The position numbers were made by a program, and so were the translations under genes. From an uncultured Schlesneria sp. (GTDB lineage Bacteria > Planctomycetota > Planctomycetia > Planctomycetales > Planctomycetaceae), in assembly GCA_903871875.1 (NCBI GenBank), contig CAIQIR010000091.1, positions 1 to 64,000 of the forward strand: a stretch of DNA of 64,000 nt. The letters are read 5' to 3'. The notes under the pieces were generated by a model. It saw only the letters and a program-made list of their open reading frames with translations. It was not told the DNA's origin and did not search any database. Of this stretch, positions 48,164-64,000 are shown piece by piece; position 1 is the first letter of the stretch, and each line of letters starts with the position of its first letter.

Positions 48164-48313
48164 GGTCGTTTGGGATCGGTGAACGCATTTCTGCGTTTCG
48201 CGGAACTTCGAGCGACGGTTACTTAGAGAATCCTGGTGATCTATACTGCCGTCCTCGCTTTGGACGATACGGTCGTCGTCATCGCCTCAGGATGCCAGAC
48301 ATCGGGATTGCAT

Positions 48314-49513
48314 ATGCAGCACACAGACGTGGCCATTATCGGTGGGGGAATTGTCGGCCTGGCGACGGCCTATCGCTTGCTCGAACGTTTTCCCGGTCGC
48401 AAAGTCACAATCCTGGAGAAGGAACGCGAGGTCGCACAGCATCAGACCGGCCACAATTCCGGCGTGCTGCATTCGGGCATTTACTATCGCCCCGGTTCAT
48501 TACGAGCCGCGAACTGTCGCGACGGCAAACTGGCCATGGAAGCGTTCTGTCAGCAGGAGAATATTCCATTCGACCGTTGCGGTAAGGTGATTGTCGCCGT
48601 CACGCCGAGTGAGATTCCTCAGCTCGAACGCATCTACGAACGCGGACTCGCCAATGATATTGCATGCGAACGAATTGGGCCCGAACGCCTGAAAGAGATT
48701 GAGCCCCATGTGGTCGGCGTGCAGGCGATTCATGTCCCCGAAGCCGGGATCGTCGACTATCGCCAGGTTGCCGAGCGATTAGCCGAACGGATCAAATCGG
48801 CGGGCGGCGAACTGAAAATGAGTGCCAAGGTGACGGGCATGTTTCGTCACGATAATCGCATGGTCGTCCAGAACGAAGCGGGGGAACTGGATGCCCGGTT
48901 GGTCGTGAATTGCGGTGGTCTCCACAGCGACCGGCTCGCCTGGCTCTCGGGGACGCACCCCGATGCACAGATTGTCCCATTCCGGGGCGAGTATTTTGAG
49001 TTGAAACCTTCAGCGCATCACCTGTGCCGGGCGTTGATTTACCCCGTTCCAGATCCGGCATTTCCTTTTCTGGGAGTGCATTTCACACGAATGATTCACG
49101 GCGGAGTGGAATGCGGTCCGAACGCCGTCTTCGCCCTGGCTCGCGAAGGGTACTATAAAACCAGTTTCAATCTGTTTGACACGTTGGAATCGCTGACTTA
49201 TCCCGGCTTTCTTCGGATGGCCTGGAAACACTGGCGGGCGGGCTGGAACGAGATCTATCGCTCGTTCAACAAATCCGCATTCGTGGCGGCCTTGCAGCGC
49301 TTAGTTCCAGAAGTTCGTGCAGAACATCTGGTCCCTGCCCCCGCCGGAGTGCGCGCCCAGGCACTGACGCGCGACGGAAATCTTGTAGATGATTTTCTGA
49401 TTTTGGAAAACGACCTGGTCGTCAACGTTTGCAATGCCCCTTCGCCAGCGGCAACCGCTGCGCTGAACATCGGGAAATTGATCGTCGACAAACTGGCCCC
49501 ACGGTTTGACTGA
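48314..49513 (+). CDS. lhgO: L-2-hydroxyglutarate dehydrogenase/oxidase (LhgO family)
   Basis: A 399-residue FAD-dependent enzyme. The N-terminal [20 protein letters not shown] gives the FAD-binding GxGxx[22 protein letters not shown] is the LhgO signature, and [12 protein letters not shown] and [12 protein letters not shown] are conserved in the family. LhgO oxidises L-2-hydroxyglutarate to 2-oxoglutarate and passes electrons to the membrane quinone pool. The start codon at 48314 begins at the family N-terminus; an earlier in-frame ATG at 48236 adds an unrelated extension. It is convergent with the rhodanese gene, only 2 bases apart. Confidence 0.88.
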
Positions 49514-49515
49514 CG

Positions 49516-49887
49516 TCAGCTTTCGACCGGATATTGAGCTTCGGTCCAACCTCGAAATCCACCGTCCATGCTGATGACGTTGGTATAGCCCATCTTTTGC
49601 AGGTTGTCGGCCGCCAAAGCCGAGCGGAATCCGCCACCACAATAGAGCACGATTTCGCGATCGAAATCGGGGACGAGAGTTTCGATATCGCGTTCGATAA
49701 TTCCTTTGCCCAGCGATTTGGCACCCGGCAAATGTCCGGCAGCAAACTCGCTCTCTTCACGCACATCAAACAACAGGAACGTCTCGCCCGCGGTCATCCT
49801 CTTCCGAATGTCCTGGACCGTGCACTCGCGGATGTTGACGCGAATGGCATTCACCAATTGCAAAAATCGTGGAGAGTGATGAGCCAT
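49516..49887 (-). CDS. Single-domain rhodanese-like sulfurtransferase
   Basis: A 123-residue rhodanese domain with DVREESEFAAGHLPGAKSL and the active-site loop CGGGFRS, whose Cys would carry persulfide, and the C-terminal GGFRGWTEA. Single-domain rhodaneses transfer sulfane sulfur or act as sulfur carriers. The start at 49887 (MAHHSPRF) has GGAAAAG upstream; the frame extends further to 50034 without rhodanese features, and that extension would overlap the bicupin gene. Confidence 0.88.
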   Translation of the reverse strand: MAHHSPRFLQLVNAIRVNIRECTVQDIRKRMTAGETFLLFDVREESEFAAGHLPGAKSLGKGIIERDIETLVPDFDREIVLYCGGGFRSALAADNLQKMGYTNVISMDGGFRGWTEAQYPVES

Positions 49888-50030
49888 GCCTGTCTTTTCC
49901 ACTGACGATGATCTCGTCAACCAATATCGACCCACTACGACGAAAACTGCCACATTCCCAGCATAGGAATGCGGCAGCGACGTGTGAAGGGACGATGTTG
50001 GTCCGATGCTCGTGATCTCGCGATCAGTAA

Positions 50031-51209
50031 TCAATGCCCCTGCTCGTCGGTGATGAACACATCGGCCTTCGGGAATTTTTCGAACAAGGCAACGGGTTTG
50101 CTGAAGTTGGTCGCCAAGATGTCAGACGAATTACCGGCAATCCATTGCGACAAATCGATCGTCTCATAAACACCCGTATTGAATCCAATCAGCACGCGGC
50201 ATGGTTTGGTGCCGACATTTTCGATCGAATGACCGTAGCCTTGTGGGATATAGCCCACGTCACCTTCGGTCATGGTTTCCGTCCGATAGCGACCATGAGA
50301 ACCAAACATCGTGACGCTGATATCCCCATCGATCACATACTGCCATTCGTCGGCTGTGGGGTGCCAGTGCAGTTCGCGAAGCCCGCCCGGTTCCAAATCC
50401 AGGATGACTCCCGTAACCGTTTTCGAGATCGGGAACGATGTCGAATCAACACGCCATTCGCGTCCGCCTTTGAAGACTCGATGCGGCGGCTGGGCGAGTA
50501 GCTGATACTTGTGCGTCAGTGCCGGAAGTTTCCATCCCTGTAGCGGAGCCGCAGGCTTTTCCGGGGGCATTGCCCCCCGCGCAAAGTAAACTTCGTCCGT
50601 TGGGAATCCATTGAAATCGGACTCTGACACACCGAAGTTTTTCGCCAGAAGTTTTTTGGGAGTGTGCCCGATCCAGTCACTGATGCTGAACGTACCAAAC
50701 TCCGAAAAGTAGCCGTTATCAAAAATCAGAATAAAATGAGCCGGCTTGTTGCCCAGGCATTCCAGCATATGACCATGGCCGCGAGGAAAATACCAGACGT
50801 CACCCGGCTCAAAGTCGTTCGTCTCGGCAGCTCCTCGCGGTTCGATCACGGTGGTGCGAACACGACCTTCGAGGACAAAGGCCCACTCGGCAGCGGTCGC
50901 ATGCCAATGCAACTCGCGCATCGCGCCCGGCTCAAGTTTCATCGAGACGCCGGCGATCCCTTTTGAGATCGGCAGTTGTAAAACAGTGGCTTCTTTCCCA
51001 TAGCTGTTGCCGACGACCTTCCCTTCCGAACTCTCCAGTGAAAACTTGAAGGTCGGTAATTCCTTACCGGACAACAACGGATCTGGAACATTGTTCATGA
51101 AACTCGGATCACCCGCTTCCGCGGGGGTACTGCCAAAAAAAGCTGCGGATGTCGTCGCGGCCAATGCTGCGGCGGCGGCCATAAACTCTCGACGCTGAAA
51201 GTCCGCCAT
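50031..51209 (-). CDS. oxdC: Bicupin, oxalate decarboxylase-like, Tat-exported
   Basis: A 392-residue protein with a twin-arginine-type signal (FQRREFMAAAAALAA) and two cupin domains. Mn-binding sets: His101, His103, Glu108, His147 (ELHWHATAAEW, RGHGH) in cupin 1 and His281, His283, Glu288, His327 (ELHWHPTADEW, QGYGH) in cupin 2. This fits the bicupin oxalate decarboxylase family (oxalate to formate + CO2), likely in the periplasm. The catalytic lid sequence of Bacillus OxdC (SENST) is not evident, so oxalate oxidase or another activity is possible. GGGGAGG lies just upstream of the ATG at 51209. A small membrane protein gene lies 77 bases upstream on the same strand. Confidence 0.82.
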   Translation of the reverse strand: MADFQRREFMAAAAALAATTSAAFFGSTPAEAGDPSFMNNVPDPLLSGKELPTFKFSLESSEGKVVGNSYGKEATVLQLPISKGIAGVSMKLEPGAMRELHWHATAAEWAFVLEGRVRTTVIEPRGAAETNDFEPGDVWYFPRGHGHMLECLGNKPAHFILIFDNGYFSEFGTFSISDWIGHTPKKLLAKNFGVSESDFNGFPTDEVYFARGAMPPEKPAAPLQGWKLPALTHKYQLLAQPPHRVFKGGREWRVDSTSFPISKTVTGVILDLEPGGLRELHWHPTADEWQYVIDGDISVTMFGSHGRYRTETMTEGDVGYIPQGYGHSIENVGTKPCRVLIGFNTGVYETIDLSQWIAGNSSDILATNFSKPVALFEKFPKADVFITDEQGH

Positions 51210-51686: not shown

Positions 51687-53387
51687 TTATTCGACCCAAT
51701 GGTCGCCAGCCTCGGCCCCATCAGCGACATCATGAGGAAAGGCAATCCCCGTGACGCTGATAAAGTGCTGCTTCAATTTTCGATTGATGTCCTTCAGCAC
51801 GCCTTCAATCTTCACAATCCCATCTGGAATCTCTGATTTGAGCGGCCCTTCGATCTTCACCGCCGACCGTTGCAGTGTCAGCCAATTATGAGGGGGAATC
51901 TGAGGATTGACGGCACCGATCGGGAAGCAGGATTGAAGAATCTCCTCAGCCACCGGTTCGCCGCGACAGAAGAAGAACATTTCGGTTCCTTCCGGCGCTC
52001 CCAGTGAGAACGAGCGATGCGGTGCGGGGTAGACCAGTCGATCGATATTGTCGTTGACGTCACGCACCGGCGAAAACGATTTCAACTCGCCCTGCGCATT
52101 AAACCAAAGCATGATCGCGTCGTGTCCGCGGGAAATATTGCAAAACACAGCCAAACGATCGCCCGTCCGCAGGGGCAATTCATTCGATAATGTCCGCACC
52201 CCGTCATGGCCAAACACATTGATCGTGGGAGTCGAATGAATCACATCGGCACCCAGCGGCGAACCGGTAATGCGTGATTCGCGCAGCCACAAGTATGAAC
52301 CCGCACCGATCAAAGCGATCGCTGCGATTGCCACCACTAGCCGCGGGGTCGTCCAGCGACGGGCCGCCCGTTGCAAAACATCCGCCACGACCTGAGCCGA
52401 CGGTCGATCCGCGGGGTCCGCCGCCATGGCCAGCTGACAGATTCGCGCGACCCGATTGGGCACGCGAGCCCATCTGAGCGGATCAAAATCGATATCACAA
52501 GCACGGGCACGCTCCAATGATTCCGAAATCGTTGAGGCCGCGAAAGGAGGCCGGCCCGTCAACAACCAAAACAGAGTCGCTCCCAATCCGAAAACGTCAC
52601 CGGCCGGTCCTGCGCGTCCCAGTCGACCATCAGCCAACGCACTTTCAGGTGGCAGAAATTCAGGAGTCCCGCCCGGCAAGCCGGCCTTTTCACCCCAGGC
52701 ATCCTCGATTTTCGATAGCCCGAAATCAATCAGGCGAGCTCGCCCGTGGGCATCGATCAAGATGTTTCGCGGCGTGAGATCGCCGTGCACCACTCCGCGG
52801 CGGTGTGCGTAAGCGACGACCTGCGCGATCTCGGAGATCACTTGAGCCGCTTCCCGAACCGTCGGTTTCCTATCGGCGAAAGTCTGTTCGAGATTTCCAC
52901 CGGGAACATGCTCAAGCACAAGGTACGGACGTCCGTCGTAGATCCCGACATCAAAAATTCGAATCAAGCCCGGATGATCGAGATCGGCCAGCAGTTGTCC
53001 CTCGGCCAACAAAGCGTCCCGACGTTCGGTATCACTGCGGGATTGTCGATGCGACAATTTCAGCACCATCTGGCGTCCCAAGTTGGGATCGACGACACGA
53101 TAGACGTCGGCCTGTCCTCCAGATCCAAGATTAGCAATGACGACGTAACGGCCAATCGTCGATGTGATCGGAAGGGGTGAACTCGCAACCCCCGAGATAA
53201 TCGTATGATTCGTGGCGGTCGCACCGGCCTGAGAAAATGAGCGTAATTCCGCGACTTCACCACTGAACATTTTGACTCGTTTTTGGCACTCGACACAGTG
53301 GTCGATATGCTCGCGCAATTCCTCCGAACCGGCTTCGTCAGTGGCGACGGCCAGCAGTTGGTCATCGCGAGGACAAATCGAATTCAT
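51687..53387 (-). CDS. Membrane serine/threonine kinase with zinc-finger N-terminus, paired with ECF sigma factor
   Basis: A 566-residue protein. The N-terminus has an H-x3-C-x2-C motif (His27, Cys31, Cys34), as in zinc anti-sigma (ZAS) domains. Residues about 80-350 form a kinase domain with glycine loop NLGSGGQADVY, Lys110, Glu130, a catalytic loop HGDLTPRN (Asp203, Asn208) that replaces the usual HRD by HGD, and DFG at 221. One membrane helix (about 364-385) precedes a periplasmic domain of about 180 residues with DRLAVFCNISRGHDAIMLWF. The start overlaps the sigma-factor stop in ATGA, so the pair is a signalling unit: probably sensor kinase controlling the ECF factor. Confidence 0.88.
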   Translation of the reverse strand: MNSICPRDDQLLAVATDEAGSEELREHIDHCVECQKRVKMFSGEVAELRSFSQAGATATNHTIISGVASSPLPITSTIGRYVVIANLGSGGQADVYRVVDPNLGRQMVLKLSHRQSRSDTERRDALLAEGQLLADLDHPGLIRIFDVGIYDGRPYLVLEHVPGGNLEQTFADRKPTVREAAQVISEIAQVVAYAHRRGVVHGDLTPRNILIDAHGRARLIDFGLSKIEDAWGEKAGLPGGTPEFLPPESALADGRLGRAGPAGDVFGLGATLFWLLTGRPPFAASTISESLERARACDIDFDPLRWARVPNRVARICQLAMAADPADRPSAQVVADVLQRAARRWTTPRLVVAIAAIALIGAGSYLWLRESRITGSPLGADVIHSTPTINVFGHDGVRTLSNELPLRTGDRLAVFCNISRGHDAIMLWFNAQGELKSFSPVRDVNDNIDRLVYPAPHRSFSLGAPEGTEMFFFCRGEPVAEEILQSCFPIGAVNPQIPPHNWLTLQRSAVKIEGPLKSEIPDGIVKIEGVLKDINRKLKQHFISVTGIAFPHDVADGAEAGDHWVE

Positions 53388-53971
53388 GGCGAAACGAGCC
53401 CCTCCCCGAAAGCGGCCAATTCCTCGCGAACCCTCGCCAACACTCGCGAAGCGTTCACATAGACGACGTTGGTCGAAACGTCCAACTCCGCGGCGATCTC
53501 CGCCGCAGGACGTCCAGCAAGGATCCTTCCTTCAAAACAGGCCCAAGTCGCTGTCACCGTCGAAACACGGACGCGCTCGACAGCAATTTCCAGTATATGT
53601 CGACGGTACAAAAGATCCCACTCATTCGAGGGGCTGCCGTCATCTACCGAAGCTTGTTGATCAGCCCACTCCTGTTCGGCCCGGCCCTGCGTCGCACGTC
53701 GTCGAAACCAGTCGGTCAGGGCATTTTGGGTCACGCGCCATAACCAGGTACGAAAGCGTCCTCGCTGAGAATCCAATTGGAAATCGGCCATCACGGAAAC
53801 AAGCCGCGTAAACACGTCTTGAACGACGTCCGCCGCGTCCTCTTCCGAGACGCCTCGCTTGCGAACATACGCGGTCAGCAACGGACGGTAGATCGCGAAA
53901 AATTCCGACCAGGCAACCTCATCCGCCGGGTTGCGGACGCGTTGGATCAGTGAAACGCGGGTCTCTGCCAT
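53384..53971 (-). CDS. ECF RNA polymerase sigma factor
   Basis: A 195-residue group IV sigma factor. Region 2 covers VAWSEFFAIYRPLLTAYVRKRG and EEDAADVVQDVFTRLV, followed by GRFRTWLWRVTQNALTDWFRRR (region 2.3-2.4); region 4 covers EIAVERVRV... GRPAAEIAAELDVSTNVVYVNASRVLARVREEL. The start at 53971 (MAETRVSLIQRVRN) fits homologues; the frame extends 40 codons upstream without family sequence. Its stop overlaps the kinase gene start by four bases. The autoregulatory promoter could not be recognised. Confidence 0.9.
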   Translation of the reverse strand: MAETRVSLIQRVRNPADEVAWSEFFAIYRPLLTAYVRKRGVSEEDAADVVQDVFTRLVSVMADFQLDSQRGRFRTWLWRVTQNALTDWFRRRATQGRAEQEWADQQASVDDGSPSNEWDLLYRRHILEIAVERVRVSTVTATWACFEGRILAGRPAAEIAAELDVSTNVVYVNASRVLARVREELAAFGEGLVSP

Positions 53972-54020: not shown

Positions 54021-54905
54021 CTAAAACTCGGGTGGCAGGGCCGTTGCATCCGCGAGTGGCTCGCCAATCGACAACAACCAACGTTCACCAACCGATTCGA
54101 AAATCACATCGTCTTCGAAGATGTCGACCACCGTTCCGGTAAAATGACCGATCTCGAAGCGACTACCCTGCCGCAGTTTCAACAGTTTGTCGTGCCCACG
54201 CAACGTGAACCAGATTTCCGGCTGTCCGTCATCCTGTGTCACCGCGGTGAGAAACACTTGACGAGATTCATCCGTTTCCCCGCCCACTCCGAAAATGTTC
54301 CGTTGTGCAATGATCCCGTAGTCTTCCAGCGAATTGTAGCTCAGTCGATGGGACGTCAGTGTCGACAACTGATCCTTGCGATCAGCTCCGGGAAGCACAA
54401 GTGCTTCAATCGTCATAATGACATCCAGCCCACCGCCTTTACCCAGCGGTGTCAGGCTGAGCGATTGGATTTTGTGCAAATGTCCAGCGCGATAGAAATC
54501 GAACAGGAATCGCACGATCTGATGCAATGTTCCTTTGCCTCGCACGGAAAAACCCAGGGCATCGTAAAAGCCCTTGCGACTATTCGCGGCACCCGAATCG
54601 ACGTGGGCCGTTTGAAATTCCGAACGCTCCACCAGCTCCAGCAGCCAGGCTCGATACAAGGACCTCGCAATTTCCGTGTCGCTCGGTAACGACGATTCCT
54701 CCCAAACCGATAGCTTCCTGATCGCCTCCTTACAGGCGGCCAGTTCCTTCTTTTTACCTTTGATCTTCTTCTGCAGTTGCTCTTTGCGGGCTTGCTTCAC
54801 CTTTAAGGGCTCATCGACGTAGGTGCGAAGTACAAAATCTCCGCCGAAGTACAGGATGACCAGACCCAGAACAATAGTGAGCAGTCGTTTCCGAGAGTCG
54901 CTCAT
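54021..54905 (-). CDS. GspM/PilO-like type II secretion component with GspC-like C-terminus
   Basis: A 294-residue inner-membrane protein with one helix (about 7-24), a coiled coil (about 30-65) and a ferredoxin-like PilO/GspM-type region (about 80-180: LHQIVRFLFDFYRAGHLHKIQSLSLTP). The C-terminal part (about 190-290) has NSLEDYGIIAQRNIFGVG followed by a small beta-rich domain, as in GspC/PilP homology regions. It would link the inner-membrane platform to the secretin. GGAGAAG lies upstream of the ATG at 54905; a GTG at 54911 overlaps the preceding stop. Last gene of the operon in this window. Confidence 0.7.
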   Translation of the reverse strand: MSDSRKRLLTIVLGLVILYFGGDFVLRTYVDEPLKVKQARKEQLQKKIKGKKKELAACKEAIRKLSVWEESSLPSDTEIARSLYRAWLLELVERSEFQTAHVDSGAANSRKGFYDALGFSVRGKGTLHQIVRFLFDFYRAGHLHKIQSLSLTPLGKGGGLDVIMTIEALVLPGADRKDQLSTLTSHRLSYNSLEDYGIIAQRNIFGVGGETDESRQVFLTAVTQDDGQPEIWFTLRGHDKLLKLRQGSRFEIGHFTGTVVDIFEDDVIFESVGERWLLSIGEPLADATALPPEF

Positions 54906-54907
54906 GT

Positions 54908-56632
54908 TCACTTCTCCGGAGTATCGACTGAGGGTGATTCCTGTTGTGACCGATCGTCGCTGTTCGGTTCAACAGTTGGCGAAGCTTCTTTGGCCGCAGG
55001 TTCTTCCGTGGCCGTCGCCTTTTTCGAGCCGGTCTTCGCACCTTTGCGAGGTTTTTTCGATTTGGATACCGCCGGTTCGGCCGACTCCTTCGCGCTGGCC
55101 TCCTGCTTATCGGGCTCCTTCGAGTTCGACTCCTTTTTGCCGGACTCTTTCACCTCACTGGCGGATTGATCGTGATCGGACTCTTCCATTTCCACTTTCG
55201 CGGGAGAAAGACTGACCGATGTTTCAAAGCCCCACGAATATAATTTGTCCTGCACACGTTCTTCGACGCGCGGCGTCTGCACCTCGTGCCGCGAATCGCG
55301 CAAGGTGACTTCCATACGAGTGACCACTTTCGGTTCGCGAGCCAAGCCCTGAAATGCGATGCTCGCCTTTCCTCCCCGCGTGGGCGTCATGGACAACCGC
55401 TGAATGACCAGATCCTGCCCCGAAGGAAATTTCGAAGACAGTTCTCGAAGCTCGTCCAACCAGACCACGCTGTTCCCGTTCCAGTCGTCGATCGCCTCGG
55501 TCACTTTCTCTTTTTTTGAACTCTTTTTGACCAGCGCCTCAAGATCTGCCAAGTCGCTGGCCAATTTCTTATTCACCGCGTCGGCCGCCGAGAATAGATC
55601 CCACACGTAGTATCCGCCCGTGCCAACTAGTACGGCCGCCACAATCAACGCCATGGCTAATTGCCGTTTCCGATCCGGTGGTTTTGGCGCCCGTCGAGGA
55701 TGCAGGAAGTCGATGGCATGGTTGCCACCATGGGCCTCGCCCAGCAGCATTCCCAGCAGCGGAATCAACCGTCCAGAAGTTTGCTTCTCCCATTGGCTGC
55801 CCAATGCGAATCCCACGTAAGGGTCGAGAAGTTCGACCTTGGCAGTACTGTCCTTCGAGATCTGCTGCACGATTCGCTCGTACTCGCCGCTGGTCCCGAA
55901 GACATACACGGCATCGATGACTTGACCGACTTCCGAACCCTGCGGCGCCACGAGGAGCGTTCGGCGAATTTCGTCGAGCAGACGTTGCTCGGCCGCTTCG
56001 TCGCCCATCCCGGCCGGCAAGCGCACGGTGCGGAAAAACAGGGGCTGCTGTTGATCAACCACAATCAAGTCGACTTCATCTGCGACGACGTTGACCAGCA
56101 GAGAATTCCCCCGGATGGCCGTTTGTTGCTTCAAGAAGAGTGAGGCCGTTTCATAGGGTCGCACCAGCATGCAGTCAGGGGCATATCCCGCCGCGGTGCA
56201 GACCGTCTTGACGCGATCGAATTCGACTTGCGACAAGGCTGCGGCCGTAATTCGACGCGGCTCGCTCGCACCGCCGACATCGGGAATGAAGTCAATCACC
56301 GATTCATTTGCGATGTTCGATGACTCGATAGCCAGCTGATTCATCACCAGTTCGGGAAGTTCCGCATCCGCGGCCGGCGGAACGGTCAACTGAAACAGTT
56401 CGATCGCATTTCGATCGACACTGGCCAGGACTTTCGCGCCCGAGCGTTTGTGTTTGGCCAGCAAGGCCTGCAACTGCTTTCCCAGTTCGTCATTCTGCAA
56501 TGGACGATCGTCAGCCAAGCCCTTCAGAGAAACACTCCCGGCAGCTTCCAGAGTGACCCGCTCGCCAACGGAATTTCCCAGCACAAAACAGAGCTCACGC
56601 GCGTCGCAATCAATAGCTAAAAGACGTGGCAT
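54908..56632 (-). CDS. PilM-PilN fusion (GspL-like) platform protein
   Basis: A 574-residue protein. Residues 1-315 form an actin-like PilM/cyto-GspL fold (LLAIDCDARELCFVLGN, VLASVDRNAIELFQLTVPP, NSLLVNVVADEVDLIVVDQ). The PilN part begins AIDFLHPRRAP, with a membrane helix (about 324-345), a coiled coil and a PilN-like periplasmic domain (FPSGQDLVIQRLSMTP). About 100 C-terminal residues are low-complexity Lys/Glu/Ser/Ala, probably disordered. In other bacteria these are two proteins, so the fusion is the GspL-like arrangement. The ATG at 56632 has GGAG at six bases; it overlaps the GspK gene by 23 bases. Confidence 0.82.
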   Translation of the reverse strand: MPRLLAIDCDARELCFVLGNSVGERVTLEAAGSVSLKGLADDRPLQNDELGKQLQALLAKHKRSGAKVLASVDRNAIELFQLTVPPAADAELPELVMNQLAIESSNIANESVIDFIPDVGGASEPRRITAAALSQVEFDRVKTVCTAAGYAPDCMLVRPYETASLFLKQQTAIRGNSLLVNVVADEVDLIVVDQQQPLFFRTVRLPAGMGDEAAEQRLLDEIRRTLLVAPQGSEVGQVIDAVYVFGTSGEYERIVQQISKDSTAKVELLDPYVGFALGSQWEKQTSGRLIPLLGMLLGEAHGGNHAIDFLHPRRAPKPPDRKRQLAMALIVAAVLVGTGGYYVWDLFSAADAVNKKLASDLADLEALVKKSSKKEKVTEAIDDWNGNSVVWLDELRELSSKFPSGQDLVIQRLSMTPTRGGKASIAFQGLAREPKVVTRMEVTLRDSRHEVQTPRVEERVQDKLYSWGFETSVSLSPAKVEMEESDHDQSASEVKESGKKESNSKEPDKQEASAKESAEPAVSKSKKPRKGAKTGSKKATATEEPAAKEASPTVEPNSDDRSQQESPSVDTPEK

Positions 56633-58250
56633 TGGACGCTCCATTAGGGGAAGTGGAAATTCCTCCCGGTGTATCGAGCACATCCCATGGATATCCGCGT
56701 CCCAACACCTGCAGATCTTTCCAAAAAAGTCGCCGCGCCGGGCGGCTCGACGCATCCAGAACCACTTCCACCCGCTGCGACAACCGCGACGCTTCGGAAA
56801 AGGCCACGATCTGACCGCGATACACATCGCCGCCAACGGTCAGGTACGGAAAAAACGCCTTCATTTTATCCAAGTTGATCAGGTTTTCAGTGAACAGCCA
56901 GCAGGGATGGTCATCATGCCGACGATCACGTTTCGACCCTGCACCGCGGGACGTCACAATCTGATCGGCCAGTGCCTTGTCGAATCCAGGAATCGCCCGC
57001 AGCACCTCGGGCGGGGCTAAGTTCACGTTGACCCGTCCTTTCAGTACTGGAGCATCTGATACGGTCGTGCGATCATAAAGGATACCAAGGAGCGCCTGTA
57101 ACTTCTCGCGATCACTCGGAAACGGACTTCCCACGACGCTGAAGATGCCTGGCGCAACCGGAACCATGACACGGGATTGCAACAGATCCAAGGGAGACGG
57201 CAGGAAAAACTTCGGGGGATTGACAAAATTAACTTTGACGGTCCCGACATCCACCGTGGTGCCGACTCCCATGTAGGGACCAAATTGCCGGTACAGTGCG
57301 GCGTATGTCGCCACCTTCACATCAAAGGCCTGCGTCATTTGCCGATGCATTTGCCCCAAATCGGGCTGATTCAGATTAATCCGCGGTTGACCGTCACGAC
57401 TTTGATTTCGTTCACCGCTGAACAACGTGAGTAATTCAGACCAGGGCAACGAACTGTCGCCGGAAGCATCTCGGGCCGGAGACACACTTGTCGACGATTG
57501 CTCATCCAGGTCCAGTCGGTGGTTCTGATTCGCGTCGTGCCCGAACAGCGCTGATCGGGTGACTCCTTTGACCAGCAACAATTCTTCCAGCGAATCGGGA
57601 ATACCATTGCGGGGCGAATAAGGAGGATTCTGGGTCGCATAGTAGTCCGCTTCGGCTCCCGATTGTCGTGGAACGACGTCACGATCCATCCAATCCAGGA
57701 TCGCGTCGGCGACGGCTTCCGTCATCTCGGGCAACGCCATCAATGCCAGACGACCAGTCCCCGGACGGCGATATTCCCACTCCATGACCGCATGCAGATC
57801 AAGACGCGTCGATTCGCGTTCGAGCCCATAGCGCCAGCCCGAGGTGCCCGTTTCGTCGTAGTGAGGGGCCATGACACTGAATCGAACTCGACAGAGCGGC
57901 CCCTCTTCATCGGCAACAACCACCCCTCGCATCAGGGTCTCTTCGTCGTCCGTCGAGGACGCAGAGATCGTCGATTGGGCCGTCGACAGGGATTGAGAAG
58001 AAGGCTCGGTCGATTGCGAGCGTTGCAGGTATTGCTTCAGAAATTCTTCGGCCGACGCAATCGCATTCTCCATTTGCAATTGTTCGCCGCGCAAATGGAC
58101 CGCTTTATTCTCGTTGGACATTGAGGCGACGAAGCCAAAACCCGCCAGGCTGATCATCACGACCACGATCATTACCAAAACCAGCACGATCCCGCGTCGC
58201 AGCGGTTTGGGATCTGGACCAAGCTGAGGACGCAAACAGCTTTTGTTCAT
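56610..58250 (-). CDS. gspK: Minor pseudopilin GspK-like protein
   Basis: A 546-residue protein with an N-terminal membrane helix RRGIVLVLVMIVVVMISLAGFGF of the pseudopilin type, a long extension, and the GspK features LPEMTEAVADAILDWMDRD and PRNGIPDSLEELLLVKGV (helix-hairpin-like). GspK caps the pseudopilus tip with GspI and GspJ. It is larger than typical GspK (about 330 residues), with a Ser/Gln-rich insert (about 80-105). The ATG overlaps the GspJ stop by four bases. Confidence 0.82.
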   Translation of the reverse strand: MNKSCLRPQLGPDPKPLRRGIVLVLVMIVVVMISLAGFGFVASMSNENKAVHLRGEQLQMENAIASAEEFLKQYLQRSQSTEPSSQSLSTAQSTISASSTDDEETLMRGVVVADEEGPLCRVRFSVMAPHYDETGTSGWRYGLERESTRLDLHAVMEWEYRRPGTGRLALMALPEMTEAVADAILDWMDRDVVPRQSGAEADYYATQNPPYSPRNGIPDSLEELLLVKGVTRSALFGHDANQNHRLDLDEQSSTSVSPARDASGDSSLPWSELLTLFSGERNQSRDGQPRINLNQPDLGQMHRQMTQAFDVKVATYAALYRQFGPYMGVGTTVDVGTVKVNFVNPPKFFLPSPLDLLQSRVMVPVAPGIFSVVGSPFPSDREKLQALLGILYDRTTVSDAPVLKGRVNVNLAPPEVLRAIPGFDKALADQIVTSRGAGSKRDRRHDDHPCWLFTENLINLDKMKAFFPYLTVGGDVYRGQIVAFSEASRLSQRVEVVLDASSRPARRLFWKDLQVLGRGYPWDVLDTPGGISTSPNGASNATSFSY

Positions 58251-59449
58251 GGCTGACGAGTCCCCCGCTCTGGCGAAATCCGGGCGACATCGGCCACCGG
58301 ATTCGCACGACCGGAAGCATCTGGCGACGGCGGCTCTTCAGCAAACGGCAAATGAATCAATCGCCGGTAGACGGTTCCCTGGCTTCCCGTCTTTAATGAA
58401 CTGCCGCTGGACCCACTCGCTGCAGCCAGCGATTCGCCCGCCTCATCACCGAGATCCTCGTCATCGTCGAGCCGGGCTTGCCCTTTGGTCGCATTGATCT
58501 GCAGCAAGACTTCCACCAGCAGGGGCAGCTTGCGCTGCTCCCAACTATTCCACTCTGATTCCCAGCTCTCGCCGTCGAAATAACGAAACTCCAGTCCGGT
58601 GACTTGTGGAACGTGAAGCACGCCCTGATCCAGCTGAAGGGCCAGGGCATCTTCGGCCGTCCATTCGGAATCACTTTCGGGCAACATGTCCGCCGCCCCA
58701 CCTGTCGTCCCCGACCGAAGATTGGCCAACCTCAAACCAATCCACGTCTCCCAGGCCCATTCACGACGGATCAACCCAGAAGGTCGCTGATATTCGCTGC
58801 TGCTGGATTCCGCAGATCGGCTGAATGTGTATTCGACAGTGCGCAGTTCGGACGCAACAGGTGGACGCGGTTGTCCCGGTTGCAGCAAAACTTCGGCCAG
58901 ATCCGTCGGCTCACGAGCGGTACGAGGATCGGTCTGCAACACAATCAGCCGCAAGGCTTGCTTCGTTCCAAACAATCCGAATTTGGGTGCTGACTGATCC
59001 GAAGTGCGACCGCTGCTATCAGAACTTGTCGTTCTGGGGCGACCGGATTCCACCGTTCCTGGCAACCCACCTGGATTTCTTGTCGGTAATGGCATCTCTT
59101 CGGAGTTCGGTCGAACCATTCCGACGGCGGGTGGCAAAACTCGTCCCACGGCAGGCAAGCCATTTTCCGCCCGCAATGGCGGCCCCGGAAAGAGAGGAGG
59201 CGACTCTTCCACAAGTTGATTTACTTGCGAAATGTCCTTGGCAAATTGTTGCGTCAAACCGCGCGCCAGTTGCGTTTCCTCGATCATCTTCTGACCTGAC
59301 ACGAACAGCTTCAGGTAGATGTCGGACAGGCTCCACAACGCGACCAGCACCACCGAAGCCAAGAGCGACGTCAACAAGACTTCCAACAGCGTAAATCCCG
59401 CACGGGACCGCTGTCGCGTATTGGATCGCTGATCAGATCGCGATCTCAC
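58247..59449 (-). CDS. gspJ: Minor pseudopilin GspJ-like protein
   Basis: A 400-residue prepilin-like protein with leader RAGFTLLEVLLTSLLA; cleavage is expected after Gly18, with Glu23 at +5. GspJ is usually about 200 residues; the extra length comes from a Pro/Ser/Gly-rich insert (about 100-165). The C-terminal domain has a GLEFRYFDGESWESEWNSW motif, typical of GspJ. Overlaps by four bases both the GspI stop and the GspK start. Confidence 0.85.
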   Translation of the reverse strand: MRSRSDQRSNTRQRSRAGFTLLEVLLTSLLASVVLVALWSLSDIYLKLFVSGQKMIEETQLARGLTQQFAKDISQVNQLVEESPPLFPGPPLRAENGLPAVGRVLPPAVGMVRPNSEEMPLPTRNPGGLPGTVESGRPRTTSSDSSGRTSDQSAPKFGLFGTKQALRLIVLQTDPRTAREPTDLAEVLLQPGQPRPPVASELRTVEYTFSRSAESSSSEYQRPSGLIRREWAWETWIGLRLANLRSGTTGGAADMLPESDSEWTAEDALALQLDQGVLHVPQVTGLEFRYFDGESWESEWNSWEQRKLPLLVEVLLQINATKGQARLDDDEDLGDEAGESLAAASGSSGSSLKTGSQGTVYRRLIHLPFAEEPPSPDASGRANPVADVARISPERGTRQP

Positions 59450-59907
59450 GGAGTGTCCTCCCGACGCTGATTTCGTCGTGGGGGAACCGAGAGACTTTGA
59501 TTCGAAGGCTCGCTGGGCGCCGTATTCGCTGCCTTCGGTGATCGACCCGGCAGCCAGCGAACCAGCGAAAAGTGAGCGGCGCGTGACGTCTGCTGCTCTC
59601 CCTGAAACACCGAAACCTTCACGGCGACCAGGTTCTGACTTCGCAGGGGCTGTGTCTCAACCGAGTAAAACCAACCCGGTTCGTCTTCCAATTCCTGCTC
59701 TTCCACCGAAGTTGCGGGCGACACTTCGGCGACGATCTCATCGAGTTTCGCCTGACAGAGCAGTTGGGCCAGATTCAGATCGTAGGCGGCATTCGCCTGC
59801 TTGCGGCCGATCGACGCCAGTTCGATCAGAGCAACCGAACTGCCCAGCAGGACACTCGTGGCCAGCATGACTTCCATCAACGAAAATCCACGCCGTGATC
59901 GATGCAT
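59446..59907 (-). CDS. gspI: Minor pseudopilin GspI-like protein
   Basis: A 153-residue prepilin-like protein, RRGFSLMEVMLATSVLLGSSVALIELASIG, cleavage after Gly7, Glu at +5. GspI forms the tip trimer with J and K. The ATG at 59907 forms TGATG with the GspH stop. The C-terminus is Ser/Pro/Arg-rich. Confidence 0.85.
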   Translation of the reverse strand: MHRSRRGFSLMEVMLATSVLLGSSVALIELASIGRKQANAAYDLNLAQLLCQAKLDEIVAEVSPATSVEEQELEDEPGWFYSVETQPLRSQNLVAVKVSVFQGEQQTSRAAHFSLVRWLPGRSPKAANTAPSEPSNQSLSVPPRRNQRREDTP

Positions 59908-60545
59908 CAACGTAATTCCTGGCGGTGCGTTTCTCCAATTTTCGCAATGCCGGTCAGGCTGCTCAGTTTCACGTCCAAACGCAAGTCAGGCTCGCCACGC
60001 AAGCTGACGACGGCATTGGTCGTATCGCCATTGGGATAGAAAACGGCAAGCTCCGTCCAAACCTCTTCGTCGTCAGCGGCTTCGCTACGTTCGATGGTCG
60101 GCACGTCGTCGTTGACCGTGACTTCAAAACAGATTCCGTCAGGAAGCTCTTTTTCTTCCGGCATCAGATCGGACACCTCGGTCAATGGCGAGCGTTCCTC
60201 GGCACTGGTTTGTGACGTTTCCGCTTCCAATTGCTCCGCGGCGCTGGGCTTCGATTCGTCCGTCGATTCGTCGTCCGACGCCGCCATCACTTGGAACTTG
60301 CCGGTATGCATCTGGATGCGAAAAACTTGAGCGACGCCCGACTGCATGGCTTTCAGGCGCGCCTTGGCCAATTCCGTACTCACCTCTTGGGCGGCGGCTT
60401 GCAGTCGCATTTTGCTCAGTGGCGATTTCAGCATGGGCCACGACATGGCTGCCATTCCTGCCAGAATCGACATCACGATGACCATTTCCATCATGGAATG
60501 GCCGCGACGATTGCGAAGTTCATGGTGTGTAGTGTTCATCATCAT
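59907..60545 (-). CDS. gspH: Pseudopilin GspH-like protein
   Basis: A 212-residue protein with a leader RRGHSMMEMVIVMSILAGM, so His instead of the common Phe at +1, but Glu at +5 retained. The middle part is acidic and Ser-rich (about 90-150), with the C-terminal VVSLRGEPDLRLDVKLSSLTG typical of GspH/FimT domains. Three tandem ATGs open the gene, overlapping the GspG stop; AAGGA lies upstream of the third. Confidence 0.82.
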   Translation of the reverse strand: MMMNTTHHELRNRRGHSMMEMVIVMSILAGMAAMSWPMLKSPLSKMRLQAAAQEVSTELAKARLKAMQSGVAQVFRIQMHTGKFQVMAASDDESTDESKPSAAEQLEAETSQTSAEERSPLTEVSDLMPEEKELPDGICFEVTVNDDVPTIERSEAADDEEVWTELAVFYPNGDTTNAVVSLRGEPDLRLDVKLSSLTGIAKIGETHRQELR

Positions 60546-61021
60546 TCCTTGTCTTTTTTATCGCTTTCCCAGCTCACGATGTCGTCTTCAGTGTTGTCCT
60601 GACCATCGGGGCCCATCGACCAGATCTCGGGTTCTTTTTTCTTCTCGCTGGTCTCGCTGTGGGTCCCGGGAAATTCGTATTGGTACTCATTGCCCCAAGG
60701 ATCTTTGGGAATGGAAGATTTCGTGATATAGGGTCCTTCCCATTTCGATTTCTTCTCGTCTTCGCTCGACGGATCCTCGGTCAATGCCGACAGACCCACG
60801 TCCGTTTCGGGATAGGTCTTCATGTCGAGCACGTATCGTTCGAGCGCGGCCATCAGCATTCCAATTTGCGTCTTGGCCGCACTGATGTCTGCCTTCTGCT
60901 TGCTGCCCAAAATTCGCGGACCGACCATCGAAATCAGCAACACGAGAATGGCCAGCACCACCAGCATTTCCACGAGGGTGAAACCGCCCCGCCTTCGTTC
61001 ACAATTCTTTGAGTTTCGCAT
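60542..61021 (-). CDS. gspG: Major pseudopilin GspG
   Basis: A 159-residue type II secretion major pseudopilin. The leader RRRGGFTLVEMLVVLAILVLLISMVGPRI gives cleavage after Gly13 and Glu18 at +5. The C-terminal YPETDVGLSAL...WEGPYITKSSIPKDPWGNEYQYEFPG and WSMGPDGQDNTEDDI is the canonical GspG end, with the Ca2+-site-type acidic residues. It is preceded by 138 bases after gspF with no clear terminator. Confidence 0.95.
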   Translation of the reverse strand: MRNSKNCERRRGGFTLVEMLVVLAILVLLISMVGPRILGSKQKADISAAKTQIGMLMAALERYVLDMKTYPETDVGLSALTEDPSSEDEKKSKWEGPYITKSSIPKDPWGNEYQYEFPGTHSETSEKKKEPEIWSMGPDGQDNTEDDIVSWESDKKDKE

Positions 61022-61159
61022 CGTTCCATCCTCTCTCTAAAAAGCATCCTGGGTGTATCAATTTTTGGCCGTGTTAAGTTTTCAGAGTAACGACAAGCCA
61101 ATGATCCCAACGGTCCCGTCGCTGCGAATCACTGGCGTCATAATTGGGTGGGAGTTCAA

Positions 61160-62368
61160 TCAACCCATTGTCGCACTCATTTCAAAAACGGGTAATAGCA
61201 AAGCGGTCAGGACGAAAAGCACCACGGCTCCCAGGATCATCAACATTGAGGGTTCCAATAGTCGTACCATGACATTCAGTTGACGTCCAATTTTCCGATC
61301 AATCCCATCCGCAATATTGATCAGAACCTTCTCTAAATTGTTCGATTCTTCAGCAATTGTGATCATTGCCATGATTGGTTTAGGAAAAAGCCCACATTCC
61401 TGTAAGGGACGGGCCAAGGTTTCCCCTGACGAAATGTTCTTGGCCGAACCATGAATGGCGGCCGCCAAAACGCGATTTCCTGTTGCATCGCTGCTAATTT
61501 CCAGCGCGCGAAGCAGTGGTACACCGTTTTGCAGCAGCGTTCCCAGCACCCGACAAAAGCGTGACAGCGCGGTCGACAGAAAGATCGGACCGAGCGCCGG
61601 CAGCTTGATCTTGTACCGATCGACCATCAATCGAGCCGAGTCGGACTGCAGTCGCTTTCGCAACCAGAAAAACAGCCCCACCAAACCCGCCGCCAGAAAC
61701 ACGCCGTATTTCCCCAGCACATCGCTGATCAACAACAGCGCGACCGTGGGTCCGGGCAGTCCACCGGCCTTTTCCAATTGCTTAAACAGCTCCGCGAACT
61801 TGGGCACAAAAAAAACAACCAGCACCACGGTGACTACAGATCCTGCCACACCCAGGAATGCGGGATAAGCCATCGCACCGACGACCTGCCCCTTCATCTC
61901 TTCCTGCATCTCAAGAAAGTCGGCCGTGCGTTTCAACGCGTCTTCCAGGAAGGCGCCTTCCGATCCGGCGCGAACCATGCTGATCGTCAATTCGCCGAAG
62001 ACGTCCGGATGTCGTGCCAGCGCCTCATCGAACGGAATCCCTTCGGCCACCTTATCGCGAACATCGGCCAAGACCTCGATCATCACTTCGCTCGAAGCTT
62101 GTTCGACCAGGACGTTCAAAGCGGCCATCAGCGACACGCCGTTCTGCAGCAGGTCCGCCAGTTGAGTCAAGTTGTTGGCGAGCAATTCGGCTTTGACGCG
62201 TCTCGACTTGGGCCACAGCCTCATCGGCCCCTTGGCCTCGTCGACGCGAACCGGAAACAGCGCGCGATCCTTCAACAACGAGAAGACATCTCGTTTGTTG
62301 TTGGCGGTAATCACGCCTGAAGCGTTCTGTCCCGTCGCGGTTCGTGCTGTGTAGGCAAATTCCGGCAT
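61160..62368 (-). CDS. gspF: Type II secretion inner-membrane platform protein GspF
   Basis: A 402-residue T2SSF protein. The N-terminal PEFAYTARTATGQNASGVI is typical. Two T2SSF repeats (about 70-195, containing LADLLQNGVSLMAALNVLVEQ; about 265-395, containing FCRVLGTLLQNGVPLLRALEI) each are followed by hydrophobic helices. GspF is the membrane core contacting GspE and the pseudopilus. It starts 23 bases after the gspE stop. Confidence 0.95.
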   Translation of the reverse strand: MPEFAYTARTATGQNASGVITANNKRDVFSLLKDRALFPVRVDEAKGPMRLWPKSRRVKAELLANNLTQLADLLQNGVSLMAALNVLVEQASSEVMIEVLADVRDKVAEGIPFDEALARHPDVFGELTISMVRAGSEGAFLEDALKRTADFLEMQEEMKGQVVGAMAYPAFLGVAGSVVTVVLVVFFVPKFAELFKQLEKAGGLPGPTVALLLISDVLGKYGVFLAAGLVGLFFWLRKRLQSDSARLMVDRYKIKLPALGPIFLSTALSRFCRVLGTLLQNGVPLLRALEISSDATGNRVLAAAIHGSAKNISSGETLARPLQECGLFPKPIMAMITIAEESNNLEKVLINIADGIDRKIGRQLNVMVRLLEPSMLMILGAVVLFVLTALLLPVFEMSATMG

Positions 62369-62391
62369 GGAAACCTATCCGCTGATTCGAG

Positions 62392-64000
62392 TTAGTCGGC
62401 CTTGGTCACACGAAGTACTTCCGAGAGCGTGGTCTGGCCGCGCATGACCCTTTTCCAACCATCCTGTCGCAGTGTCCTCATTCCATCTTTAATCGCTCGT
62501 TGTTTGACAACATTCGAAGGCAATCGCTCGGTCACGAGTTGTCGCATTTCGTCGCTGGCTTGCAGAAATTCGTAAAGGCCGATTCGGCCGGCATACCCCG
62601 TCCCGCGACAGTTTCGGCAGCCGACGTTCTTGTAAAGAGGCTGACCGCTTTTCCGGACTTCTTCGATCGGAAAGTCGATCGGGATCTCTTCCGGTTCAGG
62701 CTCGTAGGGAACACAGCACGCTTTGCACAGTGTGCGAACAAGACGCTGGGCCATCACCCCTTCGATCGTACTACTGACCAGAAACGGTTCAACGCCCATA
62801 TCCACCAGTCGCATGAAAGCCCCGGCCGCATCGTTGGTGTGCAGCGTGCTGAAAACGAGGTGTCCCGTCAGCGAAGCCTGGATCGCGTTTTCTGCGGTCT
62901 CTTGATCGCGGATTTCCCCGACCAGCACCACATCCGGGTCGTGTCGCAGAATGGCTCGCAAGCTCGCCGCGAACGTCATCCCCACCTTGGCATGGACCTG
63001 AATCTGATTGATCCCATCGAGTTGATATTCGATGGGGTCTTCCGTCGTGATGATCTTGGTTTCTTCGTCTTTGATTTCGGCCAACGAACTATACAGAGTC
63101 GTCGTTTTCCCGGATCCCGTTGGCCCCGTCACCAGCACAATCCCGTGTGGCAGCCGAATCACCTTATTGAATCGCTCGTAAATATCATCGTCCATGCCGA
63201 TGCCACGCAGCGAAAACTTCATGGCGTCTTTATCGAGCACACGCATGACGATACTCTCCCCATGCAGCATGGGGATCACGGACACACGAATGTCCACTTC
63301 GCGACGCGAAACTTTCAGCTTGATGCGACCGTCCTGCGGAATTCGCTTCTCGGCGATATTCATCTTGGCCATGATCTTCAAGCGACTGATGATCGCCGCT
63401 TGAAACCGATTGATTTCTGGTGGCATCGGCTGCGTTTGCAGCACACCGTCGATCCGGTAACGAATCTTCAGTCCAGCGGCCTGGCATTCGATGTGAATAT
63501 CGCTGGCACGCGCGTCGACCGCTTCGCAAAGAATCTCATTCACCAGATGCACCACAGACGCCTGTTGCGCCTGTTGTGAGGCCTCGGAACGATCAAACTC
63601 CAGCTCTTCCAGGACCTGAACGTCATCATCGTCCGCATCCGACTGGGCGAGCAAGCCGTCGATTGTTTCGGCCCCCACACCCAGGTGGGACTTGACCAGC
63701 TTGGCCACTTCCCAAGGCAGCGCGACCACGGGGATCACACTGCACCCGGCGGCGGAACTGACGGCATCCAACGCGTGCAGATCGAACGGGTTTCCAGTCA
63801 CGACGACCAGTGAGTCGTCTGTCCGGCGGATCGGGAACACGCCAAATCGATGAATCAGCTTGACCGGAAAATTCTCGATCAGCGTCAGATCCGGTTCGGT
63901 CGTCGACAAATCGACAAATTCCAACCCCAGCGTGGCGGCGACAGCGCGCACCGCAAGTTCCTCATTCGCAAAACCAAGCACCCCCGTGACCTTTTCTAAA
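62392..64000 (-). CDS. gspE: Type II secretion ATPase GspE, partial at right edge
   Basis: The frame is open to the window edge, so the N-terminus is missing; an internal GTG at 63981 is not the likely start because the upstream codons continue a GspE-like N-domain. Visible: N-terminal GspE-II domain, the P-loop VLVTGPTGSGKTTTLYSSL, the Asp and His boxes, Walker B in RHDPDVVLVGEIRD, and FSTLHTNDAAGAF. The cysteine pairs CKAC and CRNC in the C-terminal part are the zinc site of GspE. It powers pseudopilus assembly. Stop at 62392, 23 bases before gspF. Confidence 0.95.
   Translation of the reverse strand, partial: LEKVTGVLGFANEELAVRAVAATLGLEFVDLSTTEPDLTLIENFPVKLIHRFGVFPIRRTDDSLVVVTGNPFDLHALDAVSSAAGCSVIPVVALPWEVAKLVKSHLGVGAETIDGLLAQSDADDDDVQVLEELEFDRSEASQQAQQASVVHLVNEILCEAVDARASDIHIECQAAGLKIRYRIDGVLQTQPMPPEINRFQAAIISRLKIMAKMNIAEKRIPQDGRIKLKVSRREVDIRVSVIPMLHGESIVMRVLDKDAMKFSLRGIGMDDDIYERFNKVIRLPHGIVLVTGPTGSGKTTTLYSSLAEIKDEETKIITTEDPIEYQLDGINQIQVHAKVGMTFAASLRAILRHDPDVVLVGEIRDQETAENAIQASLTGHLVFSTLHTNDAAGAFMRLVDMGVEPFLVSSTIEGVMAQRLVRTLCKACCVPYEPEPEEIPIDFPIEEVRKSGQPLYKNVGCRNCRGTGYAGRIGLYEFLQASDEMRQLVTERLPSNVVKQRAIKDGMRTLRQDGWKRVMRGQTTLSEVLRVTKAD

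Follow-up and report, generated by a model that had tools for sequence, protein, structure and literature searches.

A class of planctomycete extracytoplasmic function sigma factors probably controlled by bifunctional anti-sigma kinases

The sigma factor and kinase gene pair

Here we describe a pair of genes from an uncultured Schlesneria sp. (Planctomycetota), encoding an extracytoplasmic function (ECF) sigma factor, termed P0002, and a membrane-bound Hanks-type serine/threonine protein kinase (STPK), termed P0001, whose N-terminus resembles zinc-binding anti-sigma factors. The pair lies in a stretch of 64,000 nucleotides (assembly GCA_903871875.1, contig CAIQIR010000091.1, positions 1 to 64,000), here called the window, which is part of a 7.6 Mb draft genome (labelled G000). 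We propose, with a probability of about 0.6, that a widespread planctomycete ECF class is controlled by bifunctional anti-sigma kinases, in which a movable zinc domain travels with the sigma gene, has become attached to Hanks kinases from different lineages, and stands alone, as a protein of ~75 residues, in one genus. The features of the locus are the following.

53384..53971, minus strand: ECF sigma factor P0002 with regions sigma2 and sigma4, 195 amino acids (TIGR02937, 76.1 bits over residues 20-185, cut-off 42.9; Sigma70_r2, 47.4 bits, Pfam cut-off 24)
51687..53387, minus strand: membrane Ser/Thr kinase P0001 with an anti-sigma-like zinc domain at its N-terminus, 566 amino acids (sequence, Pfam, AlphaFold2 model)
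53384..53387, minus strand: ATGA, the sigma stop overlapping the kinase start (sequence)
53816..53839, minus strand: sigma region 2.2, DAADVVQD, P0002 residues 45-52, intact acidic motif for contact with RNA polymerase (conservation in paired sigmas)
53226..53387, minus strand: anti-sigma-like zinc domain, P0001 residues 1-54, three helices, putative ligands C5/H27/C31/C34 (profile, model, conservation)
53157..53228, minus strand: Ser/Thr-rich linker, P0001 residues 54-77, candidate autophosphorylation site (sequence; predicted local distance difference test, pLDDT, <50 at residues 53-68)
52386..53147, minus strand: Hanks-type kinase domain, P0001 residues 81-334 (PF00069, Pkinase, 136.1 bits, cut-off 31.7)
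52764..52787, minus strand: catalytic loop HGDLTPRN, non-RD, P0001 residues 201-208 (sequence)
52284..52340, minus strand: transmembrane helix, P0001 residues 350-368 (hydropathy; long helix 331-371 in the model)
51729..52226, minus strand: beta-rich C-terminal domain, presumably periplasmic, P0001 residues 388-553 (model; similarity to other kinases)

The initial annotation of this locus had described an ECF sigma gene followed by a membrane kinase with an H-x3-C-x2-C pattern at its N-terminus, HGDLTPRN instead of HRD, a membrane helix and a further C-terminal domain. Each of these was recovered: both open reading frames (ORFs) are found on the minus strand, the pattern corresponds to H27/C31/C34 of P0001 (Cys5 is conserved as well), the loop falls inside the Pkinase match, and residues 350-368 form the strongest hydrophobic stretch of the protein. 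The full AlphaFold2 model (mean pLDDT 80.9) consists of three N-terminal helices, a kinase fold, the long helix and the beta-rich C-terminal domain. Translational coupling through ATGA had been claimed as well, and the overlap is present here; as a family rule it does not hold, a 4-nt overlap being found in just 18 of 110 pairs. Of 58 relative genomes searched, one (G007) yielded a full-length P0001 ortholog, with the kinase 58% and the sigma 70% identical, and another ortholog pair occurs in Planctomycetaceae bacterium RYN_440 (L169; sigma 70%, kinase 56%). Both pairs keep HGD and Hx3Cx2C, indicating that a gene pair with HGD and the zinc motif is not a matter of chance.

P0002 is an ECF (group 4) sigma factor by its TIGR02937 match; its sigma4 region by Pfam alone is weak (16.2 bits, cut-off 25.7). 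Matches to P0002 at E <= 1e-15 are present in 51 of the 59 genomes searched, own genome included, and sigma-kinase pairs of the class in most planctomycete genomes searched. Among the paired sigmas, region 2.2 is acidic at P0002 position 45 in 109/110 and at position 48 in 110/110, and Gln occupies position 51 in 109/110; the motif of P0002 contains no serine. P0002 shares with the ECF43 group an adjoining STPK gene, and departs from it in keeping the acidic motif (DAED) that is absent there. Because this motif is intact, unlike in ECF43, the sigma should bind RNA polymerase without phosphorylation, so that a negative regulator would be expected, a role which the zinc domain fits.

The catalytic residues K110, E129, D203, N208 and D221 (DFG at 221) are all present in P0001 and invariant in a 42-row alignment, which argues for selected catalysis. 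Phosphorylation of the sigma by the kinase, one half of the dual role suggested in the initial annotation, is plausible from these residues, although the ECF43 precedent cannot simply be carried over. The HGD loop places P0001 outside the RD subclass, HRD being found in 46 of the 54 kinase frames of its own genome and non-RD loops (HGD, HLD, HFD) in seven of the 111 sigma-linked kinases with a readable loop. Zinc-less relatives of P0001 have HLD or HQD and are thus non-RD too; since such loops occur with and without the zinc domain, HGD is read as a trait of the kinase clade, unlinked to anti-sigma function. HGD as the mark of a pseudokinase was rejected on account of these relatives and of the other catalytic residues, which are intact.

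Two kinases, L084 and L093 (the L011 kinase), have a kinase and C-terminal domain like those of P0001 (35% and 34% identity, respectively; the two matches cover residues 68-554 and 71-553); their N-terminus is different and no class sigma lies in the 6.5 and 7.5 kb examined. The C-terminus of P0001 gave no Pfam match to DUF4384, and one of the seven C-termini scanned was above its cut-off (L094, 29.3 bits vs 27). A defence-system reading was discarded, as the PADLOC matches were kinase-domain matches and none was to the sigma.

The zinc domain and its linkage with the sigma class

Of 110 homologous N-termini, 102 have Cys at the position of Cys5, which is likely the fourth ligand, completing a putative four-ligand zinc site. 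The zinc-domain profile pairs this position with a His of ChrR, which we take to be a zinc ligand. A profile (A3) was made of 50 N-termini, with rows picked by the Hx3Cx2C pattern. Against solved anti-sigma chains it gave E-values of 6e-6 for RslA (3hug), 7e-6 for DdvA (8rlz), 5e-5 and 6e-5 for ChrR (2q1z and 2z2s) and 8e-5 for RsiW (5wuq), and zf-HC2 was found at E<=0.1 in 37/50 of its members. The AlphaFold2 model of the N-terminus is a three-helix unit (pLDDT 70.8) with Hx3Cx2C across helices 2 and 3 (residues 22-30 and 32-53), as in class I anti-sigma factors, and the top three Foldseek matches of this model in the PDB are ChrR, RseA and RslA. A second structure aligner gave Z scores of 8.3, 5.1 and 5.3 for the same three, values that unrelated helical bundles can reach. 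The segment that follows is rich in hydroxyl residues, with ten Ser/Thr in residues 52-77. Another solved structure, a CHAT-domain protein (PDB 8rot), is matched by the A3 profile at its N-terminus (E 4e-4), so that protease-like effectors may carry this module too.

The domain was then related to its neighbouring sigma genes. Among 151 sigma entries, 116 have a same-strand downstream kinase and 27 do not, while eight at contig ends were not judged. Three of the 116 pairs had sigmas scoring below 100 bits by the sigma profile and were left out, namely L017, whose sigma is cut and whose kinase has the motif, and L129 and L133, which belong to a remoter sigma class and lack it. This gave 113 non-identical pairs, all above 100 bits. 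The proposal of the initial annotation depended on homologues not lacking the zinc motif, and Hx3Cx2C precedes the kinase domain in 110 of the 113; the three others are L068, whose frame starts just ahead of the kinase domain, L217, whose kinase frame is motif-less, and L224 from Verrucomicrobia.

Two counts are independent of selection by sigma. Within the own genome, six of the 54 kinase frames (all Pkinase matches, three of them weak and under the Pfam cut-off) carry the motif, and these are precisely the six behind class sigmas, a coincidence with a probability of 4e-8 under random labels; several other kinases beside sigmas of the remoter class (e.g. on contigs C132, C14 and C94) are without it. 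Among 30 loci chosen by kinase similarity alone, window included, the six with the motif all have a sigma (cut in L017, longer in L096), and none of the 24 motif-less loci has a class sigma within ~1.5 kb on each side. The remoter sigmas of G000 point to a second kind of sigma-kinase pair, found on C132, C14, C94, C57 and C128 (L146, L129, L133, L143 and L144), with remote ECF sigmas and kinases lacking Hx3Cx2C; these sigmas may be controlled by phosphorylation alone.

Searching from the zinc side, the zinc profile alone found a match in 137 of 248 genomes of the class. The best 30 loci hold a sigma >80 bits in 25 cases, a weak one (20 bits) in one and none in four, and in 21 of them the zinc domain shares its frame with a kinase. 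Two zinc proteins have weak kinase matches (L276 and L291, 58 and 101 bits), and a third, of 479 amino acids (L288), has none and adjoins the weak sigma of 20 bits; all three may be degenerate or other effector fusions. Thirteen class sigmas are without a same-strand downstream kinase. Two of them have a free-standing zinc ORF, one a zinc ORF running off the contig, and five a zinc kinase on the opposite strand; in one more, L233, the zinc kinase shares the strand of the sigma but lies upstream of it. Zinc kinases opposite in strand to a class sigma were seen at loci L213, L231, L234, L099, L102 and L227.

The kinases that carry the module do not form one lineage. Mapped onto a tree of 76 kinase domains, the zinc label has to change nine times, with six of these changes forced by well supported branches; a single zinc clade appeared in 0/200 bootstrap trees and is rejected by the approximately unbiased test (p 1e-32). 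P0001 falls in a supported clade of 13 (98/92), of which five are zinc-less kinases, L084 and L093 among them. A quick tree of 88 rows had given ten changes, five forced. Its 37 zinc rows comprised three near relatives, four further kinases and a random 30 of the remainder, and its zinc-less rows near relatives, loci from the kinase-similarity search and a random 25; the 76-row tree is this set minus 13 long, odd or unstably placed rows (12 zinc-less, one zinc) plus P0001. On these trees the zinc module is shuffled between kinase lineages.

The module also occurs without any kinase. In each of the six genomes searched from genus g33, a member of another family, a zinc ORF of 74-76 codons comes directly after a sister sigma, and there is no kinase. 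These ORFs carry C-x(n)-H-x3-C-x2-C, start 26 nt inside the sister sigma in 6/6, and show 15-18 identities to P0001 over 66 aligned residues. Their products (L249-L254, ~75 amino acids) are candidates for very small putative anti-sigma factors, and would offer a simple route to test inhibition apart from the kinase. The family of g33 has the sister sigma in 10/45 genomes, and in the four outside g33 the zinc unit is fused to kinases, two of which (L256 and L257) have an extra helical-looking stretch between zinc domain and kinase, resembling the zinc-less L084. In G075 and G076 a second zinc frame lies nearby (L273 and L278). Given the profile homology, the near-perfect co-occurrence with one sigma class, the movement of the zinc module and its kinase-free version, the anti-sigma half of the dual role put forward in the initial annotation is well supported, and the N-terminus of P0001 is very probably an anti-sigma domain.

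Proposed mechanism and rival explanations

The computed observations to be accounted for are the gene pair, the intact kinase residues, the anti-sigma homology, the linkage of the zinc domain with the sigma class and the kinase-free version. As a whole, the best explanation, and in our judgement a fairly probable one, is a membrane signalling unit whose zinc N-terminus holds the sigma and whose kinase activity frees it. In the scheme that we infer, the ECF sigma would be intrinsically competent for RNA polymerase binding, and residues 1 to ~54 of P0001, as a zinc-stabilised class I anti-sigma domain, would bind it when newly made and keep it inactive at the membrane. A signal at the extracytoplasmic C-terminal domain would bring about a change in the kinase via the single membrane helix, and phosphorylation at the expense of ATP, with the Ser/Thr-rich linker or the anti-sigma domain as the most likely target and the sigma as a less likely one, would open the complex and free the sigma. 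That an outside signal leads to the phosphorylation that ends the hold is suggested by the kinase with its intact residues together with the membrane helix and the sensor-like domain.

Several points weigh against an anti-sigma kinase. P0001 by itself matches zf-HC2 at E 0.53, below the Pfam cut-off; the significance of the zinc-domain homology comes from the family. The choice of A3 rows by motif favours the anti-sigma scores, though the ChrR match spans 80 positions, and the three Foldseek matches are individually weak (E 0.9, 1.9 and 2.9 for ChrR, RseA and RslA). According to passages of PMC7406223, class I anti-sigma factors bind sigma2 by a fourth helix, and our N-terminal model is without a helix past residue 54, the mean pLDDT of its last three ten-residue blocks being 53, 49 and 57. 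Of the 13 class sigmas that no same-strand kinase follows, four (L192, L082, L225 and L220) have neither a kinase nor an Hx3Cx2C frame in the stretch examined, whichever strand is read. For the g33 zinc ORFs, the ratio of nonsynonymous to synonymous polymorphism (pN/pS) is <1 in 15/15 pairs and ranges over 0.57-0.99, which is weak purifying selection; the case for real genes therefore rests on their invariant ligands and constant place and length. Finally, a mirror-tree comparison of distance matrices (110 pairs, reduced to 104 by kinase-domain length and to 96 by sigma redundancy) gave 0.67 for sigma-zinc and 0.70 for sigma-kinase, with partials of 0.47 and 0.52; it does not single out the zinc domain over the kinase, and was dropped as a discriminator.

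The alternative that survives best, which we consider unlikely, is activation as in ECF43 (EcfP/PknT and EcfK/PknS), where the kinase would phosphorylate the sigma to allow RNA polymerase binding and the zinc domain would merely dock, with no inhibition. It is consistent with the intact catalytic residues of the kinase and with passages of a review in which six ECF groups, some of them exemplified by planctomycetes, are proposed to be STPK-activated, as the gene usually encoded with them is that of an STPK rather than of an anti-sigma factor (PMC8999054). ECF59 has a planctomycete example in the same passages, and a serine in its 2.2 motif would be phosphorylated according to part of PMC8103513; EcfK has linker phosphosites too, as given in excerpts of PMC13147305. 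However, the acidic 2.2 motif that is absent in ECF43 is kept by nearly all 110 paired sigmas, the zinc domain is homologous to inhibitors, and genus g33 has a kinase-free zinc protein in the kinase's place. Conserved Ser/Thr of the sigma (T4, S/T7, T142, S/T166 and S175) were considered as diagnostic phosphosites and rejected, being frequent also in the 13 members that lack a kinase downstream on their strand; of these residues, T4, S/T7 and T142 speak against this alternative in particular.

A more doubtful possibility is that P0001 is an ordinary anti-sigma factor whose kinase domain has no catalytic part in sigma control, being a scaffold (structural or for sensing ATP) or directed at other targets. 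The free-standing zinc version without a kinase would agree with this, as would the joining of the zinc module to kinases of several lineages, as though the kinase were exchangeable, and the non-RD loops in 7/111 pairs; the invariance of the catalytic residues in the 42-row alignment stands against it. That the N-terminus serves some general purpose, such as zinc binding or dimerisation, with no relation to the sigma, and that the two genes are neighbours by chance, is very improbable in spite of the short domain, the simple motif and the poor score of the single protein, as the restriction of the motif to the kinases behind class sigmas in the own genome comes close to refuting it, and the 110/113 pairs with the motif and the 25/30 best zinc-profile loci with a sigma >80 bits count against it too.

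With respect to the genes around the pair, a type II secretion / pilin-like operon (54021-63981, minus strand) ends ~50 bases ahead of the sigma start; its protein K is above the Pfam cut-off and its protein J below, and the remaining genes were named by eye. Control of this operon by the sigma was considered and dropped, since none of six tested secretion-operon genes lies within 7.5 kb upstream of the G007 sigma (L259) or within 4 kb in L169. Downstream of the kinase, rhodanese-like and FAD (flavin adenine dinucleotide)-dependent oxidoreductase genes (48236-50034) are also near the G007 pair, where they are 84% and 89% identical.

Comparison with known systems

In the literature searched, we found no description of an anti-sigma domain on planctomycete STPKs, and one may be in print outside that search (e.g. 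Jogler 2012; Casas-Pastor 2021). The closest arrangement is that of ECF43 (EcfP-PknT and EcfK-PknS), where an ECF sigma gene likewise lies beside a Hanks-type kinase and PknS is transmembrane, as is P0001. As far as the passages describing them go, ECF43 sigmas are without the acidic 2.2 motif and depend on phosphorylation for their activation, whereas the motif of P0002 is intact and P0001 carries an anti-sigma-like zinc domain. PknS has an N-terminal extension of 83 amino acids, and the word "zinc" is absent from the text of PMC13147305.

Planctomycete ECF sigmas beside an STPK are also known from ECF59, ECF61, ECF62 and ECF217, as listed in parts of PMC8999054. The difference here is that a domain with homology to anti-sigma factors is part of the STPK. 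The ECF62 example given in that part of the review is from Rhodopirellula sallentina, whose genome also yielded a zinc-kinase pair (L188). If it is true that the kinase is an anti-sigma factor, a large family would call for other reasoning than that applied to STPK-linked sigmas in the review, in which phosphorylation is expected because an anti-sigma gene is missing beside them.

With the class I zinc anti-sigma factors (ChrR, RslA, RsiW and DdvA), P0001 shares Hx3Cx2C across helices 2 and 3, an upstream candidate ligand, a three-helix N-terminus and profile homology. It differs from them in that the zinc domain precedes a kinase that is catalytically complete by its residues, a membrane helix and a sensor-like domain. 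In Mycobacterium tuberculosis, PknB phosphorylates the zinc anti-sigma factor RshA and SigH is thereby freed, according to passages of PMC8999054 and PMC13147305. In that system two proteins share the tasks of kinase and anti-sigma factor, whereas here one polypeptide would combine them, and if this holds true, anti-sigma sequestration and Ser/Thr phosphorylation, two classical bacterial schemes, would be fused in a single protein.

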